Source of the DNA: Clostridiales bacterium
GTDB lineage: Bacteria > Bacillota > Clostridia > Saccharofermentanales > Saccharofermentanaceae
Direction: 5' to 3'
Assembly: GCA_017617525.1 (NCBI GenBank)
Contig: JAFZWA010000003.1
Location: 1-64,000 of the forward strand
DNA: 64,000 nucleotides
Below are positions 43,756-56,148 of the stretch, one piece after another. A program made the translations under genes and the position numbers. The notes below the pieces were generated by a model. That model was given only the letters and a program-made list of their open reading frames with translations. It had not been told where the DNA came from and made no database searches. Within the stretch, counting starts at the first letter, position 1. The number at the start of each line of letters is the position of its first letter.

Positions 43756-45060
43756 ATGAGAGAGTACACGACACAGATGGACGCGGCTAGAAAAGGGATC
43801 ATTACCCCGGAGATGAAGGCCGTCGCGAAGAAAGAATTTCGAACAGAGGAAGAGATCCGTCAGTGGGTCGCCGACGGTCAGGTCGCGATCTGCGCGAACA
43901 AGCTTCACACCTGTATCGATCCGAATGGTGTCGGCTCGATGCTGAGAACAAAGATCAACGTCAACCTCGGCGTATCGAAGGACTGTAAAGACTATGACAT
44001 CGAGATGCGGAAGGTCATGGCGGCGGTCGACATGGGTGCCGAGGCGATCATGGACCTTTCCTCTCACGGAAATACACAGCCTTTCAGAAGAAAGCTCACA
44101 AGCGAATGCCCGGCCATGATCGGTACCGTTCCTGTATATGATTCTGTTATTCATTATCAGAGAGATCTCGCGACACTGACCGCGCAGGACTTTATCGACG
44201 TCGTCAGACTTCACGCGGAAGACGGTGTCGACTTCGTGACCCTTCACTGCGGTATCACGAGAAAGACGATCGAGCAGATCAAGAAAGTCGGAAGAAAGAT
44301 GAATATCGTTTCCCGCGGCGGTTCGCTCGTTTTCGCATGGATGTGCATGACAGGAGAAGAGAATCCTTTTTACGAGCATTACGATGAGATACTTGATATC
44401 TGCCGTGAGTACGATGTCACGATCTCCCTTGGTGACGCGTGCCGTCCGGGCTGCCTTGCCGATTCTTCCGATGTGTGCCAGATCGAAGAGCTCGTAAGAC
44501 TTGGTGAACTGACACGCCGTGCTTGGGCGAAGGATGTTCAGGTCATGGTCGAAGGCCCGGGTCATATGGCGATGGATGAGATCGAAGCCAACATGAAGAT
44601 CCAGCAGCGCATCTGTGGCGGCGCGCCGTTCTATGTTCTCGGACCGCTTGTTACTGATATCGCTCCGGGTTATGACCACATCACATCCGCGATCGGCGGC
44701 GCGATCGCGGCAAAAGCCGGCGCGGCATTTCTCTGCTACGTAACTCCTGCCGAGCACCTCGCGCTTCCGAATGTCGACGATGTAAAGCAGGGCATCATCG
44801 CGTCCCGCATCGCGGCACACGCAGCGGATATCGCGAAGAAAGTGCCGCACGCGCGTGATATTGATGACCGCATGGCGGACGCCAGAAGAAAGTTTGACTG
44901 GGAAGAGCAGTGGAACTGCGCGATCGATCCGGAGACCGCAAAAGCGATCCGCGACGACAGATCCCCGGAGATCGAAGAGAGCTGCTCCATGTGCGGAAAA
45001 TTCTGCGCGGTAAGATCCATGAATAAAGCTCTTGCCGGAGAATATATTGATATCTTATAA
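43756..45060 (+). CDS. thiC: Phosphomethylpyrimidine synthase (radical SAM)
   Basis: 434 residues, the short ThiC form. CANKLHTCIDPNGVG, NVNLGVSKDCKDYD, DLSSHGNTQPFRR, VTLHCGITRKT, SLGDACRPGCLADSSD and EGPGHMAMDEIE are typical. The 4Fe-4S motif CSMCGKFC (Cys410, 413, 417) has CX2CX3C spacing, one residue shorter than the CX2CX4C of the enterobacterial enzyme. It rearranges aminoimidazole ribotide to HMP-P. AAGAGG precedes the ATG. It lies downstream of the two hairpins, and the TPP riboswitch probably controls it only in part. Confidence 0.95.
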   Translation: MREYTTQMDAARKGIITPEMKAVAKKEFRTEEEIRQWVADGQVAICANKLHTCIDPNGVGSMLRTKINVNLGVSKDCKDYDIEMRKVMAAVDMGAEAIMDLSSHGNTQPFRRKLTSECPAMIGTVPVYDSVIHYQRDLATLTAQDFIDVVRLHAEDGVDFVTLHCGITRKTIEQIKKVGRKMNIVSRGGSLVFAWMCMTGEENPFYEHYDEILDICREYDVTISLGDACRPGCLADSSDVCQIEELVRLGELTRRAWAKDVQVMVEGPGHMAMDEIEANMKIQQRICGGAPFYVLGPLVTDIAPGYDHITSAIGGAIAAKAGAAFLCYVTPAEHLALPNVDDVKQGIIASRIAAHAADIAKKVPHARDIDDRMADARRKFDWEEQWNCAIDPETAKAIRDDRSPEIEESCSMCGKFCAVRSMNKALAGEYIDIL

Positions 45061-45162
45061 GTGCTTTTCGCTATGTCGTGCGAGCTGAAATCGCCCGCGC
45101 GACAGCGTTGGAAGCATTTCTGTTTCTGTTTTTTTAAGTCGGGTAAAATTTTATCGAAAAAA

Positions 45163-45221
45163 CCTATTGACATGGTAGGCGAAATGGTTTATTATTCAAA
45201 ACAACCTAGTCAGTCACTAGG
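45163..45221 (+). promoter_or_regulatory. metY-cysK promoter with two 17-bp palindromes
   Basis: TTGACA (45167-45172), 17-bp spacer, TATTAT (45190-45195). Two palindromes of the form CCTANT-N5-ANTAGG flank it: CCTATTGACATGGTAGG (45163-45179, over the -35) and CCTAGTCAGTCACTAGG (45205-45221, at the start of the transcript). Centres are 42 bp apart, about four helical turns. This is a repressor layout. A similar site covers the -10 of the Rrf2 gene at 59619-59635. Confidence 0.75.
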
Positions 45222-45249
45222 CGAAACGAAAGAAAAAGGATGAGCAACC

Positions 45250-45318
45250 ATGAGAGAGCTTCTTATCCAACTGAATAGAAAGAATTATCGTTTCGGACGA
45301 ATGTGTCGATGTTGTTGA
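45250..45318 (+). CDS. Cys-rich leader peptide (22 codons)
   Basis: ATG at 45250, AAAGGATGAG upstream, stop TGA at 45316-45318. The peptide begins MRELLIQLNRKN and ends FGRMCRCC, so three of its last five residues are Cys. It is the first ORF on the metY-cysK transcript, 225 bases before metY. Cys codons placed just before a stop suggest ribosome stalling when Cys-tRNA is short, as in cysteine-responsive leader ORFs known from mycobacteria. No classic terminator with a U-run follows; hairpins CCGAA-CTGA-TTCGG (near 45335), GCCATC/GATGGC (45357-45383) and ACGTGA-AGAA-TCACGT follow, with a GGTCC/GGACC pairing as an alternative. Confidence 0.6.
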   Translation: MRELLIQLNRKNYRFGRMCRCC

Positions 45319-45542
45319 CCGGTCCTGCTCCGAACTGATTCGGTGCATTGTGTTCGCCATCCACGGACCATATAGTGATGGCATCCCCCTTATCACGTGA
45401 AGAATCACGTACTACAACACAATATTGCGAATAGACGTATGTCGGTCGTGGTGTATTTTTACGCAAAAAACACATGTTTCACGCTATGTTCCGCCTACGC
45501 CTCTGAGCACAACACATTTGATTTTGAAAGGATAATAAAACT

Positions 45543-46829
45543 ATGAGCAACTATAAATTCGAAACACTTCAACTTCATGTAGGACAGGAAAACGCCGATC
45601 CGGCAACAGACGCAAGAGCGGTACCGATCTACGCTACTACATCTTATGTATTTAAGGACGCCGCACAGGCAGCAAACCGCTTCGGTCTTGCCGAGGGTGG
45701 TAACATCTACACAAGAATCATGAACCCGACATCCGATGTCCTCGAGCAGAGAATCGCGGCACTCGAGGGTGGCGCGGCAGCTCTGGCAGTTGCTTCCGGC
45801 GCGGCAGCGATCACATACTCCGTACAGAACATCGCGACAGCAGGTGACCACATCGTTTCTTCCGAGAACGTTTACGGTGGTACATACAATCTCTTTGAAC
45901 ACACTCTCGCTGAGCAGGGCATTTCCGTTACATTCGTAGATCCTTCCGATCCGGAGAACTTCAGAAAAGCGATCCGTCCGAACACGAAGCTTCTTTATTC
46001 CGAGACGATCGGTAATCCGAACTCTGACATCCTCGACATTGAGGCAGTTTCCGCGATCGCACACGAAAACGGAATCCCGCTGATCGTAGACAGCACTTTC
46101 GCGACACCTTATAATCTCCGTCCGATCGAGCACGGCGCAGACATCGTCGTTCACTCCGCAACGAAGTTTATCGGCGGTCACGGTACGGCAATGGGCGGAC
46201 TCATCATCGACGGCGGTAAGTTCGACTGGGCACAAAACGACAAGTTCCCGGGACTTAGTAAGCCGAACCCGTCTTACCACGGTGTCGTATTCACGGAAGC
46301 AGTAGGAAATCTCGCTTACATCATCAAGGCAAGAACGACACTCCTTCGTGATCAGGGCGCTTCGATCTCTCCTTTTAACTCCTTCCTGCTCCTGCAGGGT
46401 CTTGAGACACTGTCTCTCCGTGTAGAGCGTCATGTGGAGAACGCATTGAAGGTCGTTAAGTATCTGGAGAATCATCCGCTCGTTGAGAAGGTAAATCACC
46501 CGGCAGCAGCTTCCGCTTCCGATTCTCAAAAAGCACTTTATGCCCGTTACTTCCCGAAGGGCGCAGGCTCCATCTTCACCTTCGAACTGAAGGGAAATGC
46601 CGAGCAGGCAAAGAAGTTCACGGAAGACCTCGAGCTGTTCTCACTGCTGGCAAACGTTGCCGATGTTAAGTCTCTGGTCATCCATCCGGCATCTACGACT
46701 CACTCCCAGCTCTCCGAGGAAGAACTCCTTGACGCAGGCATCAAGCCGAACACGATCAGACTGTCGATCGGTACAGAACATATCGACGATATCATTGCAG
46801 ACCTTGATAGTGCTTTTGCAAAGGTATAA
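45543..46829 (+). CDS. metY: O-acetylhomoserine sulfhydrylase (OAH aminocarboxypropyltransferase)
   Basis: 428 residues, Cys/Met metabolism PLP family. FETLQLHVGQ, YATTSYVF, YTRIMNPT, ASGAAAITYS, TIGNPNSDILDI and VVHSATKFIGGHG (PLP Lys at about 208) match MetY over cystathionine synthases. It makes homocysteine from O-acetylhomoserine and sulfide, and may also use O-acetylserine. GAAAGGATAA precedes the ATG. It heads the sulfur operon with cysK 65 bp later, behind the palindromic promoter and the Cys leader ORF. Confidence 0.94.
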   Translation: MSNYKFETLQLHVGQENADPATDARAVPIYATTSYVFKDAAQAANRFGLAEGGNIYTRIMNPTSDVLEQRIAALEGGAAALAVASGAAAITYSVQNIATAGDHIVSSENVYGGTYNLFEHTLAEQGISVTFVDPSDPENFRKAIRPNTKLLYSETIGNPNSDILDIEAVSAIAHENGIPLIVDSTFATPYNLRPIEHGADIVVHSATKFIGGHGTAMGGLIIDGGKFDWAQNDKFPGLSKPNPSYHGVVFTEAVGNLAYIIKARTTLLRDQGASISPFNSFLLLQGLETLSLRVERHVENALKVVKYLENHPLVEKVNHPAAASASDSQKALYARYFPKGAGSIFTFELKGNAEQAKKFTEDLELFSLLANVADVKSLVIHPASTTHSQLSEEELLDAGIKPNTIRLSIGTEHIDDIIADLDSAFAKV

Positions 46830-46894: not shown

Positions 46895-47827
46895 ATGGCA
46901 AACATTTACACATCTGCAGATCAGCTCATCGGAAAGACACCGATCCTGGAACTGACACACTTAGAAAAATCCACAGGCGCTGTGGCTAAGGTTTTCGCAA
47001 AACTCGAATACTTCAATCCGGGCGGATCCGTCAAGGACCGTATCGCGAAAGCAATGCTCGATGACGCGGAGGCAAAGGGAATCCTCAAGCCGACAACAAC
47101 GATCATCGAACCGACATCCGGTAACACCGGTATCGGTCTCGCGGCAGTCGCAACGGCAAGAGGCTACAGATCCATCATTGTAATGCCTGACACGATGTCC
47201 GTTGAAAGAAGAAAGCTCATGAAGGCGTATGGCGCGGAGCTCGTTCTTTCCGAAGGCGCTAAGGGCATGAAGGGCGCGATTGCAAAAGCAGAAGAACTCC
47301 ATGCAGAGATCGCGGACAGCCTGATCCCGTCCCAGTTCACCAACCCGGCAAACCCGGCCGTTCATAAGGCAACCACAGGTCCGGAGATCTGGGAAGACCT
47401 CGACGGCAAAGTTGATATCTTCGTCGCAGGTGTCGGTACGGGCGGAACGATCACGGGTACAGGTGCTTTTCTCAAGGAAAAGAATCCGAACGTAAAGATC
47501 GTCGCGGTCGAGCCGAAGGATTCTCCGGTACTTTCCGAAGGTCACGCGGGTTCTCATAAGATCCAGGGCATCGGCGCAGGTTTCGTTCCGGAGACTCTTG
47601 ATACGAGCATCTATGACGAAGTATTCCCGGTAAGTAACGAAGACGCTTTCGATATCGGAAGAAAGATCGGAAGACAGGAAGGTGTTCTCGTAGGTATCTC
47701 TTCCGGCGCGGCCGCATTCGCCGCTCTTGAACTTGCGAAGCGTCCTGAGAACGCAGGAAAGAACATCGTTGTTCTTCTCCCGGATTCCGGTGACAGATAT
47801 CTTTCTACCGCTCTTTACGAAGAGTGA
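46895..47827 (+). CDS. cysK: Cysteine synthase (O-acetylserine sulfhydrylase)
   Basis: 310 residues, fold type II PLP enzyme. [22 protein letters not shown] with PLP Lys47, [11 protein letters not shown] (substrate loop), [12 protein letters not shown] (phosphate-binding) and [17 protein letters not shown] are all present. It makes cysteine from O-acetylserine and sulfide. GAAAGAAGG precedes the ATG. Together with metY it gives parallel sulfide entry into cysteine and homocysteine. A strong terminator follows. Confidence 0.96.
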
Positions 47828-47885: not shown

Positions 47886-47987
47886 AGATCCGGCTTTCTT
47901 TTTTGTTAAACATAGTGACAAGTATTCTGCTCTTTGATATTCTCGATTTGGGGGTGAAAACGAAACTAAGGAAGGTTGAGTTTGCAT

Positions 47988-50540
47988 ATGAAAAAATGGC
48001 AAAAAACACTGGCCGCGACGATCGCGGCGTCTACTGCTCTTTCCTGCTTCCTGGCGGGTTGCAAGAAGAGCGATTCTTCAAAAGACACGACTAAGAAAAC
48101 CGGAAAAACCACAAGTGTGAGCGAGACAGAGGAACCGACGGATACGGAGCCTTCTGAAACCCCGGATACGTCAGTCGATCTTTCCGATTTTCAGTTTACG
48201 GAAGATAACTATCCGGTACTCGATGGATCGACTTCCACGAAGCCGCTCGCGACGGCGGTCACTTCGATCATGCTCGGTATTCCGAGATCGGAAGCGGATA
48301 AGAAACTGGAATTCCATAAAACATCGCAATCCTTCAGATATCTGATGGACGGCAACGCGGATATGCTGATCTGCGCACAGCCGGCGGACTCGGTATTCGA
48401 ACTGATGGAAGAAGAGAATTTCGAATATGAGATGGAACCTTTTTCCGCGGAGGCACTGGTTTTTGTCGTAAATACAAGTAATCCCGTTGAGTCACTTACG
48501 ACCGAACAGATCCAGAAGATCTACACCGGTGAGATCACGAACTGGAAAGAAGTCGGCGGAGAAGATAAAGAGATCGTGGCGGTCCAGAGAAATAAGGAAG
48601 CCGGATCGCAGGTCATGATGGAAAAACTCGTCATGGGTGATCTGGAGATGATGGAAGCTCCGCAGGAACTCATGCCGGGTGATATGAGCGGGCTGATCCA
48701 GGTCGTAAAATCTTTCGATAATTCCGCGGGAGCGATCGGATATACCCCTTACTATTACGCGACGAACATGAAGATGGCGGACGGCCTTAAGATCATCAAG
48801 GTAGATGATGTAATGCCGGACAATGAAACGATCGCAAGCGGCGAGTATCCTTTCCGCACATCCTATTTTGTAGTCATTCCGAAAAGCACTCCGGACGACG
48901 CGCCTTCTCGCATCCTTTTCAACTGGATCTTAGGTGAAGACGGACAGAAACTTGTCGAGATGGAAGGCTATGTTCCGGCGGCATCTTCTTCGGTTCCGAA
49001 GAATACCGTTGAAGTTGTTGCGGATTGGACTGTATATCAGCCGGCAGAAGCCGCCGATTCCGTCTTTACCAGACTTAAGGATGAGGAGATCGCGGATTTT
49101 ATTCCTTCGTCGGATTACGGCAGGATATATCCGTTTACAGGATCTCTTAAAGAAGGCTACTGGTCCTGGAGCACAAAAAGAGGATTCTTTGATCAGAACG
49201 GAAGGATCATTTGTGATCCGGTCTACGACAGTATCGGGGCACTCAACTCGGACATGTATATCGTGTATCAGTATGTGGTAACTGATGATCAGTCTGAACA
49301 GGAGAAGTTTATCGGTGTGATCAGTTCTGATGGATCGCACTACACCGGAATGAAGTATTGTGATTATATCATCCATTCTGACGGCAGCATTTCGCTTGTT
49401 GAAAAAACATCGGATGGTATTAAGGTGTATCCATACGGCAGCGCGGATGGTTCTGTCGGATCACCACGATCCTATAAAATGACGACCGACGGTGTGAATA
49501 TTTTTACATTTTTGTCTCTTTACAAGATCATTGATGATAGATATCTCGTATTCTATGATGACGAGGGCTGTGATGTGACAGTATACGATGGAACCACCGG
49601 TAATAAGGTATCTTTCGGAGATAATATCGGTATCACGGAATGCTGCGGTGAGATTTTTGTGGGATACGACAATTCCGCGGATTTTTCCGGAACGAAGCTG
49701 TTTGATATTCACGGCAATGAGATCAAGAAACAAATTGATTATGTCACATCGTTGGATGATGATACGATCCTCTTCTATCTTCCGGATGGATCGGGATGGG
49801 AGATCGCCGATGCGAATGGAAACGAGATAAAGACACTCACTGACTTGAACCATGAGATCAAAGAGTTTCATAGGAAGCCTGATTGTTTTGTCGCGATGAA
49901 GAGTGACAGTGTTGAAATCTATGATCTTCATCTGAATCTCACGAAGACCGTTAAGCTGAAAGGTGCGTACAACTATTCGTTGGCGTCAGCCGAAAACGAG
50001 AACTACTTTTATCGCTTTTCCGATGCTTTCAAAACGGATCTGTATGCGTATCGCATATCCGACGGAAAAACATCGATCATCAATCTGAATACGGAAGAGT
50101 CCACTACCATCGACGGTGAGTATGGCGTCTGTGTTTTGCCGGATCGTCTCCTTTTGAGTACTTATAATTCCGGATACGAAAATGTGATGAAATGGCTTTT
50201 GCTGGACGCGAAAGACTACCACAAGATCACCGAGGGTGAAGGTGAAATCAATGTATACGAAGATATGAAAGACCATACATACTATATGGCCGTTGGTAAG
50301 GAATTCTGGTCGGATACTCTTTCTATCGTTGATATTGCGACGGGAGAAGTCGTATGGGAGAGCCTTCCGAACCCGAGATCGGATGTTTTGTTTGTTGATT
50401 CTATCTATGACGGAAAACTTCTCTACACGACGAATCATAACTACTCTTCGTATGAGGTCGCCTGCAGCAGCACGAATATGATCGATAAAGACGGAAATGT
50501 GATCTTCCTCTTTAACACGGTATATCTGCCGGGAGACTGA
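47988..50540 (+). CDS. Large lipoprotein: PstS-like binding domain plus repeat domain, copy A
   Basis: 850 residues. Signal peptide with lipobox FLAGC, KK, a Ser/Thr/Glu linker, then a periplasmic-binding-protein-like domain (~65-330) with PstS hallmarks: LDGSTSTKPLATAV, VNTSNPVESLTTEQIQKIYTGEITNWKEVGG and SAGAIGYTPYYY. The C-terminal ~500 residues have repeated short strands, including FFDQNGRIICDPVYDSIG, like WG-type beta-repeat domains. It should bind an anion or other ligand outside the cell. No permease is nearby. The ATG at 47988 fits the signal peptide; TTG 47976 is disfavoured. Paralogue of the next gene. Confidence 0.75.
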   Translation: MKKWQKTLAATIAASTALSCFLAGCKKSDSSKDTTKKTGKTTSVSETEEPTDTEPSETPDTSVDLSDFQFTEDNYPVLDGSTSTKPLATAVTSIMLGIPRSEADKKLEFHKTSQSFRYLMDGNADMLICAQPADSVFELMEEENFEYEMEPFSAEALVFVVNTSNPVESLTTEQIQKIYTGEITNWKEVGGEDKEIVAVQRNKEAGSQVMMEKLVMGDLEMMEAPQELMPGDMSGLIQVVKSFDNSAGAIGYTPYYYATNMKMADGLKIIKVDDVMPDNETIASGEYPFRTSYFVVIPKSTPDDAPSRILFNWILGEDGQKLVEMEGYVPAASSSVPKNTVEVVADWTVYQPAEAADSVFTRLKDEEIADFIPSSDYGRIYPFTGSLKEGYWSWSTKRGFFDQNGRIICDPVYDSIGALNSDMYIVYQYVVTDDQSEQEKFIGVISSDGSHYTGMKYCDYIIHSDGSISLVEKTSDGIKVYPYGSADGSVGSPRSYKMTTDGVNIFTFLSLYKIIDDRYLVFYDDEGCDVTVYDGTTGNKVSFGDNIGITECCGEIFVGYDNSADFSGTKLFDIHGNEIKKQIDYVTSLDDDTILFYLPDGSGWEIADANGNEIKTLTDLNHEIKEFHRKPDCFVAMKSDSVEIYDLHLNLTKTVKLKGAYNYSLASAENENYFYRFSDAFKTDLYAYRISDGKTSIINLNTEESTTIDGEYGVCVLPDRLLLSTYNSGYENVMKWLLLDAKDYHKITEGEGEINVYEDMKDHTYYMAVGKEFWSDTLSIVDIATGEVVWESLPNPRSDVLFVDSIYDGKLLYTTNHNYSSYEVACSSTNMIDKDGNVIFLFNTVYLPGD

Positions 50541-50612: not shown

Positions 50613-53099
50613 ATGAAAAGACGAATCGTATCTGTCATGTTGGTTTTGGGGATGCTCCTTTCTTTTTCGGGATGCAAGGATAAGGATGAGACAACAAAAC
50701 AAACGAAGGTGAAGAAGACCAAAACCACTTCCGTTTCCGAAACAGAAGAACCGGAAACCGAGCCGTCGGCTACCGAAACGGATGATCCGAAGCCGGACGG
50801 GTTCGAGTTTACGGAGTCGAATTTTCCGTATATCTTCTGCTCTGATGAGATGAAGCAGCTCGGAATCGCGCTTTCTTCTTCTTTGCTGGGGATGTCGGAG
50901 AAGGATGCAGGTATTTATTTTCTGGATACGCTTTTGGAAAAAGCGGATGCTCCTTATTCTGTAGAAGCCGTCAAATTCGGTTTCTGCACTCCGATACTAA
51001 AAAATCGGCTTGAGGAGAACGATATCCAATATGAAGAGAAAGTGATCGCGCAGGACGCGATAACGATGATCGTCAGTAAATCAAATCCGGTCGATTCGCT
51101 TACGTCAGAACAGGTCAAGAAGATCTACCTGGGCGAGATCACGAACTGGAAAGAAGTCGGAGGAAATGATGAGCCGATCGTTCCTTTCGCAAATGTGAAT
51201 TATTCAACGGCTACCGAGCTGTTTGAAGATATCGTTTTGGGACAAAACATCCCGGATAAAACGAATGTTCCGACGATCGAGGCCGGAGGAGATGATTATT
51301 CGACATTAACGCTTAACCGTATATACGATAATACTTCAGGAGCGATTACTTTTGTCCAGTACTTCTACGCGCAGGAATGTTATTTTTCTGACAAAGTCAA
51401 GATCCTGAAGATTGACGATGTTGAACCTTCTTCCGACACGATCAAATCTGGCAGCTATCCTTTTATCTTTGATCTGTATGCGCTGGTGTCCGACGCATTA
51501 AGATCGGATTCTCCTGAAAAAGTGCTTTATGATTTTTTGACGACAGAGGACGGCAAAAAGGTGATCGAAAAAGCAGGATATGTACCGGCGGGAGATACTA
51601 CTGCTTCCGCGACAGATGTGACCTTTGATCTCGATGCTTATGTGCCGGGCGAAAAGCCGGAAGAAGTTTATACACGCGCTTCGGATGAACCGATCATGGA
51701 TTTTGTTCCCGGCGATTACGGCGCGATCTTCCCGTTCATGGGGGCTTATCAATACGGAATCGGCGGATGCCACCAGTATCTGTACGGATTTGTTGACGCG
51801 CAGGGAAAGATCATCTGTGATCCGATCTTCAGCTACATCGAGCGTATGGGCGACGGAATGTACAAGGTCTGGAGAAACGACAAGAAGCCGGAAGGACAGG
51901 TCGGTATCATCAGCCAGAACGGAGCTTCCTTTACGGATGCGATCTATGACCGCTTTTTTATCATCGACGGTGTGTACACTTTCGCAAACATCGAAAAGAA
52001 CGGCATGCAGATCTTTATCTTTGATGAGAGCAACGGAAAAGTCATCGAGGGACCTTTCCTTAAGATGAACGATACGAGTGCCTTGTACTGTTTCAGTACC
52101 ATAATCAATGACAGATATATCATTTGCGAGAATGAAGTTGATGAAGAGTATTTTGTCTTCGACGGATATACCGGTGAGGACATCTATAAGAAACTTTTTG
52201 GTGACCAGAGACCGTGGAAGTTCGGACACATGTTTGAAATTTATAAGGATGATATGAGTACTGTCGATAAAGTCATCGATATTGAAGGAAACGTGCTTTT
52301 CTCGGATCCGGACTGTGGGCTGCGCTATGTCTCTAATGAAATATTCGCTTATGGTTCTCCCGAAAGTGACGAATGGAAGATCCTTAACAAAGACGGAAAA
52401 GTGCTGGCCACGATCGATAATACGGCTCATGATATTACCGGTTTTTCGGCTTCTGATGATTATGTCTTAGTTATTCACACGGATATTGTATATGTCTATG
52501 ATGCGAACATGGAACTTCTGGCATTAATCGATATCCCCAATAACACATATGCATATGCGCTGGAAAGACCCTGGGACTATTACGCGAAACCGATCGGAAC
52601 GGGAAAGACCGACCCGATCATCGCTTCGTCTGACGGGCAGAATATGAAACTCATCAACCTGACGACAACGAAGTCAGTAGTATGTCCTACTTCCGACTAT
52701 ACGAACTGGTACCAGATGCCGGGTGTGGTCATAAAAAGAGACGGAGATGAGTGGATGATCCTCGACTCTTCGGATTTTCACGTGATCGCGGATGGAACCG
52801 GATTTACGGAATTCTTCGTGGATAATGTCACACAGAAATACTATATGACGATCCGAAATTCCATTCTCAACAGTTCTTTGCAGATCATCGATGTGGCGAC
52901 GGGTGAGACTGTTCTTGAAGATCTTCCGAATCCGCTAAATGAAAGAATGGAGATCCGGAGCATCAATGACGGAAAGATCTATTACGAAACGCAGTATCCG
53001 AATGATCAACTCTTCGGCACACCGAGAGGCTACACGATCGTAGACATGAAGGGAAATGTAGTGTTCCGTTATAACGGACTTGCGTTTATGTACGATTAA
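50613..53099 (+). CDS. Large lipoprotein: PstS-like binding domain plus repeat domain, copy B
   Basis: 828 residues, paralogue of the gene at 47988. Lipobox LSFSGC, linker with the same TTSVSETEEPE motif, PstS-like domain (~55-320: SNPVDSLTSEQVKKIYLGEITNWKEVGG, TSGAITFVQYFYA) and a WG-like repeat domain (GFVDAQGKIICDPIFSYIE). The ligand-contact start of copy A (DGSTSTKP) is replaced by FPYIFCSDEMKQ, so this copy may have lost phosphate-type binding. GGAGGG precedes the ATG, 72 bp after copy A. A terminator follows. Function unknown. Confidence 0.75.
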   Translation: MKRRIVSVMLVLGMLLSFSGCKDKDETTKQTKVKKTKTTSVSETEEPETEPSATETDDPKPDGFEFTESNFPYIFCSDEMKQLGIALSSSLLGMSEKDAGIYFLDTLLEKADAPYSVEAVKFGFCTPILKNRLEENDIQYEEKVIAQDAITMIVSKSNPVDSLTSEQVKKIYLGEITNWKEVGGNDEPIVPFANVNYSTATELFEDIVLGQNIPDKTNVPTIEAGGDDYSTLTLNRIYDNTSGAITFVQYFYAQECYFSDKVKILKIDDVEPSSDTIKSGSYPFIFDLYALVSDALRSDSPEKVLYDFLTTEDGKKVIEKAGYVPAGDTTASATDVTFDLDAYVPGEKPEEVYTRASDEPIMDFVPGDYGAIFPFMGAYQYGIGGCHQYLYGFVDAQGKIICDPIFSYIERMGDGMYKVWRNDKKPEGQVGIISQNGASFTDAIYDRFFIIDGVYTFANIEKNGMQIFIFDESNGKVIEGPFLKMNDTSALYCFSTIINDRYIICENEVDEEYFVFDGYTGEDIYKKLFGDQRPWKFGHMFEIYKDDMSTVDKVIDIEGNVLFSDPDCGLRYVSNEIFAYGSPESDEWKILNKDGKVLATIDNTAHDITGFSASDDYVLVIHTDIVYVYDANMELLALIDIPNNTYAYALERPWDYYAKPIGTGKTDPIIASSDGQNMKLINLTTTKSVVCPTSDYTNWYQMPGVVIKRDGDEWMILDSSDFHVIADGTGFTEFFVDNVTQKYYMTIRNSILNSSLQIIDVATGETVLEDLPNPLNERMEIRSINDGKIYYETQYPNDQLFGTPRGYTIVDMKGNVVFRYNGLAFMYD

Positions 53100-55796: not shown

Positions 55797-56095
55797 GAAA
55801 AACCGTAGAGGAAGAGTGAGTAAGCTCTGATTCCTTCCCATCCAGAGAGTTGCCGATGGTGAGAGTGCAGCAGGAGAGGGCAGAGACGAATGGACTTCCG
55901 AGGGCAAGGGGAAAGCTCGAAAGGGCAAGTATCTGCGCCGGGGAAAGGAGCCCCGTCAACAAAATCCAGCATATGTCGGTATGCGTGAGAGGATCTCGCG
56001 AAACGCAAGTGTAGTGGGATCAAGCCGGGTGGCACCGCAGGAAAGAATAGTGTTCCTGTCCCAGCAGAAATTAAGAAGCTGGGGCGGGATTTTTG
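55797..56095 (+). ncRNA. T-box riboswitch, tryptophan specifier
   Basis: Stem I elements include AGAGAGTTGCCGATGGTGAGAG (conserved GNTG and AG-bulge region in two pieces) and the specifier loop GACGAA-TGG-ACTTCC with TGG at 55891-55893, a Trp codon followed by A. The T-box sequence GGGTGGCACCGC is at 56027-56038 in the antiterminator, followed by the terminator CCTGTCCCAGC/GCTGGGGCGGG (56055-56088) and ATTTTTG. Uncharged tRNA-Trp would allow trpB read-through. Confidence 0.95.
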
Positions 56096-56148
56096 TTTTT
56101 CCGGCAGAAAAGAAGGATCTGCCCCAATAAAACGAAAGGAGACATATT

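Follow-up and report, generated by a model that had tools for sequence, protein, structure and literature searches.

A conserved short leader ORF before metY-cysK of a Clostridiales bacterium and its probable role as a translational attenuator of sulfur amino-acid synthesis

Sulfur amino-acid genes of Clostridia are usually discussed as targets of S-box or T-box RNAs or of CymR. How, then, is the metY-cysK pair of a Clostridiales bacterium controlled, in front of which stands a short ORF with a Cys-rich end? A sequence-only reading of the window, by which we mean the whole 64-kb stretch of DNA analysed here, had proposed that this ORF senses cysteine by ribosome stalling and had called this an unusual route for Clostridia. 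The latter description is fair: the genome contains two SAM riboswitches, one of them before metK, and nine T-box matches, five of which are over the cutoff, but none of these matches lies at the metY promoter or at the two further leader operons described below. An Rfam search of the metY upstream locus likewise returned no riboswitch or T-box match and nothing above chance. The explanation that we favor and consider likely is a ribosome-mediated translational attenuator that responds to sulfur amino-acid supply at metY-cysK. The leader is conserved and shows complementarity between its codons and the metY ribosome-binding site (RBS), so that it probably acts as a switch for homocysteine and cysteine synthesis.

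The leader ORF and its conservation

The gene metY encodes O-acetylhomoserine aminocarboxypropyltransferase (sulfhydrylase; 45543-46829, + strand; TIGR01326, 653 bits with a cutoff of 495) and is followed by cysK, encoding cysteine synthase A (46895-47827, + strand; TIGR01139, 448 bits with a cutoff of 351). The upstream neighbor on the + strand is a thiamin gene cluster, which is preceded by a TPP riboswitch (RF00059; 41042-41148, + strand; 67.7 bits) and ends near 45060, leaving an intergenic region of 482 nt before metY. This region contains a sigma-70-type promoter, TTGACA-17-TATTAT, with 11 of 12 matches (45167-45195, + strand) and, at a distance of 55 nt, the leader ORF MRELLIQLNRKNYRFGRMCRCC followed by a stop codon (45250-45318, + strand), which has its own Shine-Dalgarno (SD) region, AAAAAGGATGAG (45233-45244, + strand). 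Judged from the promoter match, the leader AUG lies about 50 nt past the predicted transcription start and the leader would be the first ORF on the transcript. Its last four codons are TGT CGA TGT TGT, three of them for Cys, and a spacer of 224 nt separates it from metY.

The leader ORF is real and beyond chance. When the intergenic region was dinucleotide-shuffled 2000 times, no shuffle contained an ORF of 8-50 codons that was SD-led and had three or more Cys among its last five codons, and no second ORF of this kind exists on either strand of the 64-kb window. The 22-codon, Cys-rich ORF with a ribosome site that had been read before metY-cysK is therefore confirmed in its coordinates, SD region and Cys codons as well as by the shuffle test. 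The spacer had also been said to have no plain terminator, and indeed we found no terminator-like site on the + strand from 45050 to 45560, the leader-metY spacer included. As a short SD-led ORF that lies upstream of the genes, is conserved across species and is enriched in Met and Cys codons, it has features of a leader-peptide attenuator, a type of control described as little known in Firmicutes (PMC2965389).

For the comparison with relatives, MetY served as anchor and upstream regions were taken from members of the genus and the family and from 80 named loci outside them; before counting, 16 weak ORF calls were discarded manually. Of the 154 distinct regions upstream of metY in the family and other Clostridia, 96 contain a related leader, with 81 distinct peptides, and the genes downstream of the leaders are sulfur genes throughout. 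Within the genus, the last 12 leader codons are on average 87% identical to those of the window, whereas the spacer, at 50% identity and 45% in a reversed control, is near background; in many relatives it is merely about 20-60 nt long. The seven codons before CGA show 117 synonymous and 35 nonsynonymous differences between distinct sequences of the genus. The interpretation as a leader ORF acting by ribosome stalling thus withstood the comparison with relatives, in which the ORF is kept at the level of genus and family as well as in other Clostridia, despite the divergence of the spacer.

Among the named carriers are Ruminococcus flavefaciens YAD2003 and ATCC 19208, with a leader reading ...NSERMCRK..., and Lachnospiraceae bacterium G41 (...LLIRMCSRCRCCL), and many metagenome-assembled genomes from gut and rumen have ...NFRFGRMCRC. 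With these strains as carriers, the idea may be testable beyond uncultured genomes. The MetY proteins encoded at the named loci share 73-88% identity with that of the window, and transfer of a leader-metY cassette may therefore explain part of the spread, which may lower the independence of the comparisons. The strict pattern CGAATGTGYCGATGTYG was found class-wide in 4 of 391 genomes, namely the window itself, one case at metY, one inside a gene and one near a contig end. The strict form is therefore rare; it is the metY-anchored search that supports the wider distribution.

The constant motif, the CGA codon and the amino acids probably sensed

Across 80 leaders, the consensus around Arg-Met is R-x-N-[F/Y]-R-x-G-R-M-C, located at 45277-45306 (+ strand) in the window. 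In the 53 leaders with the full motif, the Asn and the Arg residues two positions to either side of it are invariant as residues but written with varied codons, which argues that the peptide itself is selected. Close to the proposed stall site, R, N, R and G are all fixed in this manner. The conservation of R-x-N-[F/Y]-R-x-G as amino acids suggests that the nascent peptide contributes, since a plain codon-counting attenuator would not need conserved residues. The invariant core of the leader is R-x-N-[F/Y]-R-x-G-R-M and not the Cys run.

The Arg before Met is fixed as a codon and not merely as a residue, being CGA in 53 of 53 full-motif leaders. Counted over the unique leaders, the Arg codon is CGA in 81 of 82 cases before Met and in 40 of 75 before Cys, compared with 14 of 174 other leader Arg positions (8%) and 63 of 760 Arg codons in the genes of the window; the counts are not phylogenetically independent. 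In the window, CGA-AUG-UGU (45298-45306, + strand) is the proposed stall site, and a second Arg-Cys site, CGA-UGU-UGU (45307-45315, + strand), makes up the final codons before the stop. The family search pattern admitted any CGN codon, the order search also AGR codons, and the metY-anchored sets imposed no codon choice; among the inspected extra places that the order search returned by allowing AGR, none was recognised as a leader. Pairing of CGAAUGUGU with the RBS was rejected as the cause of the fixed CGA because CGA is also fixed in leaders without this pairing.

The genome has tRNA-Arg with the anticodons TCT, CCT, ACG and CCG, and no TCG anticodon occurs among the 38 tRNA matches (the genome is 95% complete). 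With tRNA-Arg(ACG) and no TCG, CGA is expected to be read via inosine, I34. I:A decoding is slow in other organisms. An account of yeast describes CGA-CGA pairs as inhibitory (PMC6301793).

Which amino acid does the leader respond to? The codon after Arg-Met is Cys in 57 of 80 leaders, a UGA stop in 12 and a codon for another residue in 11. Cys and Met account for 11.6% and 7.4% of leader codons compared to 1.6% and 2.9% in the genes of the window, an enrichment that is partly a selection effect as leaders were chosen for R-M or R-C; R-M is present in 80 of the 81 leaders of the set chosen in this way. Several relatives lack the Cys run and their leaders end with ...GRM-UGA. In one relative (G096), the Cys-less leader MKEYFEKLVRENYRQGRM precedes metQ-metN-like genes for a methionine transporter, and other leaders of the family are rich in both Met and Cys (MSATYRKSMCMCMMPCWYEMEIECFSCHVDDQDTRM). 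Since Cys is common yet dispensable, Met follows CGA almost without exception and a Cys-less leader stands before metQ, the leader probably senses Met and Cys rather than Cys alone. Of the proposed cysteine sensing by ribosome stalling, the conserved leader ORF is hence upheld, but not Cys as the sole signal.

In L012, L015, L032, L043 and L047 the UGA of the GRM-UGA end takes the position of the Cys codon, and in L032 a stretch similar to the Cys-rich tail of relatives (TCCCGCTGTTCTGAC) still follows this UGA. Exchange of Cys and UGA being its signature, selenocysteine reading was considered for these leaders.

The Cys-rich end could alternatively bind a metal on the ribosome, a mechanism that an account of a copper-responsive upstream ORF of Bordetella proposes (PMC9426467), and the end of the window peptide is indeed CxCC-like. 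This is hardly credible for the metY leader, as relatives have Ile, Phe, Trp, Arg or a stop instead of Cys and the downstream genes are those of sulfur amino acids.

The conserved residues also fit a ligand-sensing arrest peptide. Here, the chain R-x-N-[F/Y]-R-x-G-R-M would stop the ribosome on a small molecule such as Met, Cys or SAM in a TnaC-like manner, the Cys codons would be secondary and the exposure of the RBS would be unchanged. Apart from the residues kept with varied codons, this could explain why the GRM-UGA leaders retain the motif without a Cys run; TnaC is known to arrest ribosomes at a stop codon. We nevertheless regard it as unlikely. The fixation of the Arg before Met as a codon speaks against it, as do the strong enrichment of Met and Cys codons and the retention of R-M without N-[F/Y]-R-x-G in leaders of the Met/Cys-rich and CCRM types and of Ruminococcus flavefaciens. 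With TnaC, SecM and CliM, the last of which is presented as an arrest peptide from Clostridia (PMC13183943), the metY leader shares a conserved peptide motif near the position of the proposed stall, but it has another motif and other downstream genes, and arrest is putative in its case.

One leader (L053) contains NFRCGRMCCSCSNS in tandem duplication, a natural experiment on the motif.

Predicted pairing of leader codons with the metY ribosome-binding site

The leader codons for N-Y-R-F-G-R-M-C are predicted to pair with the metY RBS about 205 nt downstream. The 5' arm, AUUAUCGUUUCGGACGAAUGUGU (45284-45306, + strand), and the 3' arm, ACACAUUUGAUUUUGAAAGGAUAAU (45512-45536, + strand), which includes the metY SD AAAGGA (45527-45532), form a duplex of -22.2 kcal/mol. 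When the whole 338-nt leader is folded, this anti-RBS helix appears in its MFE structure and in its centroid structure; the stability of the full leader is not unusual (z -0.5).

The complementarity is specific to each species. When each leader core was paired with the RBS of other species in a permutation test, own pairs reached -13.7 kcal/mol versus -10.6 kcal/mol for permuted ones (z -11.2, 80 leaders). Exchanging partners between related species does not remove phylogeny completely, for which reason the 44 representatives with less than 70% identity matter: in these, own pairs reached -12.6 versus -9.9 kcal/mol (z -7.5), a difference attained in 0 of 5000 permutations. Split by spacer type, the match was found in leaders without T6 (z -7.0) and hardly in the eight with T6 (z -1.0). 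Counting of pairs within the genus revealed no covariation beyond shuffles (76.5% versus 76.2% paired, 31-59% in slid controls) and is uninformative because the leader side hardly varies.

We modelled the ribosome as a mask of 30 nt placed so that AUG occupies the A site, using equilibrium and not co-transcriptional folding. In 64 leaders without T6, masking raised the mean RBS accessibility from 0.45 to 0.59, with an increase of more than 0.1 in 33 leaders and a decrease in one, whereas no such rise was observed in 16 leaders with T6. A mask at AUG was more effective than ribosomes placed elsewhere (0.128 versus 0.035, P 7e-6, 56 leaders). For the leader of the window, the accessibility is 0.33 in the free RNA, 0.54-0.60 with the stalled ribosome and 0.34 once a ribosome occupies the stop codon. 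In L009 and a number of leaders of genus g2, L032 and L043 among them, the helix is weak and the ribosome mask is ineffective; the weakness lies in the 3' arm in some species. In silico, the RNA structure at the metY RBS is thus predicted to be switched by the position of the ribosome. The sequence-only reading had left open whether the leader affects translation or factor-dependent termination; the species-specific pairing of leader codons with the metY RBS supports an effect on translation.

From these features we infer the following course of events. With ample Met and Cys, the ribosome would clear the 22 codons, the helix would form and translation of metY, then cysK, would be poor. A shortage of charged tRNA-Met or tRNA-Cys would make the ribosome stall at CGA-AUG-UGU and its footprint would cover the 5' arm, so that the helix could not form and the metY RBS would be exposed, upon which homocysteine and cysteine synthesis would rise. 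The invariant CGA, if read by inosine wobble as expected, probably primes the pause, and the conserved nascent peptide may help.

Such a course resembles that of erm-type attenuators (ermC, ermB), in which a ribosome stalled in the leader prevents sequestration of the downstream RBS. The signal there is an antibiotic, whereas in the metY leader it would be the supply of sulfur amino acids, and unlike in erm leaders the sequestering arm would consist of the stall codons themselves. The mycobacterial cys operons, in Actinobacteria, have leader ORFs with Cys codons (PMC1262725; Canestrari et al. 2020, as cited in PMC13236596) that share with the metY leader the short ORF with Cys near the stop, the position before sulfur genes and the lack of an obvious intrinsic terminator. 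However, they are described as leaderless, whereas the metY leader has its own SD, and the metY leader differs in the fixed CGA-AUG, the R-x-N-[F/Y]-R-x-G motif, Met in the putative signal and codons that pair with the RBS. For the uORFC-8-2 motif upstream of cysS in Rhodobacterales, sensing of charged tRNA-Cys by stalling has been proposed on the basis of conserved Cys codons (PMC8632094). An upstream ORF with Cys codons and proposed ribosome stalling are common to both, but uORFC-8-2 ends in an intrinsic terminator, has tandem Cys codons and no CGA-AUG, and belongs to another phylum and other genes. A search of mostly non-subscription literature found neither a CGA-AUG word nor a Clostridia sulfur leader like that of metY. 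The metY leader thus appears to be a conserved, functional-looking variant of ribosome-mediated attenuation, with a hypothetical stalling signal and a hypothetical role of CGA.

Palindromes and further leader operons

Two palindromes at the metY promoter both fit CCTA-N9-TAGG. The first, CCTATTGACATGGTAGG (45163-45179), overlaps the -35 box and is a candidate repressor operator, and the second, CCTAGTCAGTCACTAGG (45205-45221), lies near the expected transcription start. The same palindrome type is found at two other leader operons and at a nifS-iscU-like operon of the genome (named by sequence reading), which has no leader. A candidate binder is the only Rrf2-family regulator found in the genome (PF02082; 59190-59585, - strand), a protein that passes the Rrf2 superfamily cutoff and stays below the equivalog cutoffs for IscR (96 of 208 bits) and CymR (84 of 195 bits; NCBIfam). 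Transcription is probably also repressor-controlled at the two palindromes, perhaps by this protein. In the relatives L198 and L200, an Rrf2-like sequence lies directly upstream of metY.

Could repressor control at the palindromes be all that matters, with the leader ORF as a relic? The palindrome occurs at several sulfur promoters of the genome, among them the leaderless nifS-iscU-like one, and for two metY copies (L151, L184) with a similar promoter no leader was called. Yet a relic would diverge like the spacer, and the constraints on codons and pairing are strong, which makes this very improbable.

The two other leader operons lie on a further contig of the same genome (C33; G000:C33:6000-16500, L264) and have MCCRM-type leaders. 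One of them, MKTSEARKMDMCMCCRMLNSRTCYVDGALGSVSLRRDGERC, precedes metQ; the other, MRTKVFETSYCVMCCRMFSSRVSMAGAQERSSSRLHVRRCY, precedes metB-like, cysK-like and metN-like genes and an ORF taken as metI by its position. Both are preceded by CCTATTGACATAGTAGG and followed by a terminator-like hairpin with a T-run. In a pattern search of the family, CCRM leaders preceded genes read as metQ, metB-like, metY and a LysR regulator, and a palindrome-like site, defined by a loose pattern, was present at 30 of 30. A third CCRM hit in the genome (C54:27330) was taken as chance, as it lies in an apparent coding sequence and has no leader context. A terminator switch would be expected to be suppressed with the ribosome at the first Met/Cys run or near the second Cys run and to form in between. 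In equilibrium models of CCRM and Met/Cys-rich leaders, this pattern was limited to L112, L115 and, in rough form, the metQ leader, while the metB-like leader of the genome itself and L102 were insensitive.

These hairpin-bearing, intrinsic-terminator-like leaders in the family and before metQ and the metB-like operon lend some plausibility to the view that at metY, too, the position of the ribosome sets transcription termination in the spacer, either Rho-dependent or at a weak terminator, comparable to what is proposed for the mycobacterial cys leaders; a factor-dependent effect was also an option of the sequence-only reading. We give this view little chance. The spacer of the window has no terminator-like site on the + strand, the many spacers of about 20-60 nt offer little room for Rho loading, and the RBS complementarity is significant in leaders without T6 only. 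By the same token, the metY leader of the window does not qualify as a transcription attenuator with an intrinsic terminator, since the terminator hairpin with T-run of other family members is missing. With classical attenuators (trp, his; the His leader of bacilli, PMC2965389) it shares control codons for the pathway's own amino acid, and the CCRM leaders of the genome additionally share the terminator-like hairpins. The metY leader differs from them in lacking a terminator and in translation initiation as the proposed step.

The proposed translational attenuator at metY could be one instance of something broader. We tentatively suggest, as a possibility somewhat short of even, that CGA-Met-(Cys) is a portable pause word of Clostridia, placed on translational as well as transcriptional switches of the sulfur regulon. 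If this is true, a slow, inosine-wobble-decoded Arg codon followed by Met or Cys codons would make pausing unusually sensitive to supply; alternatively, a sulfur metabolite could be sensed through the nascent R-x-N-[F/Y]-R-x-G chain. In a single genome the word would then be used at metY-cysK, at the metB-like/cysK/metNI operon and at metQ, and three operons of the window genome are apparently under leader control. The leader points to a further, ribosome-based layer of sulfur control in gut and rumen Clostridia. With its fixed codon, CGA-AUG offers a testable case of regulatory pausing at a wobble-decoded codon; the variants without Cys would permit sensing of Met, Cys or a metabolite to be told apart.

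Downstream of cysK, the window contains two adjacent, similar lipoprotein-like genes (47976-50540 and 50613-53099, + strand), the N-terminal half of which is substrate-binding-like. A T-box match at 55797-56066 (+ strand) scores 55.8 of 93 bits and is thus below the Rfam gathering score; the gene at 56148 downstream of it reads like a TrpB2-type tryptophan synthase.
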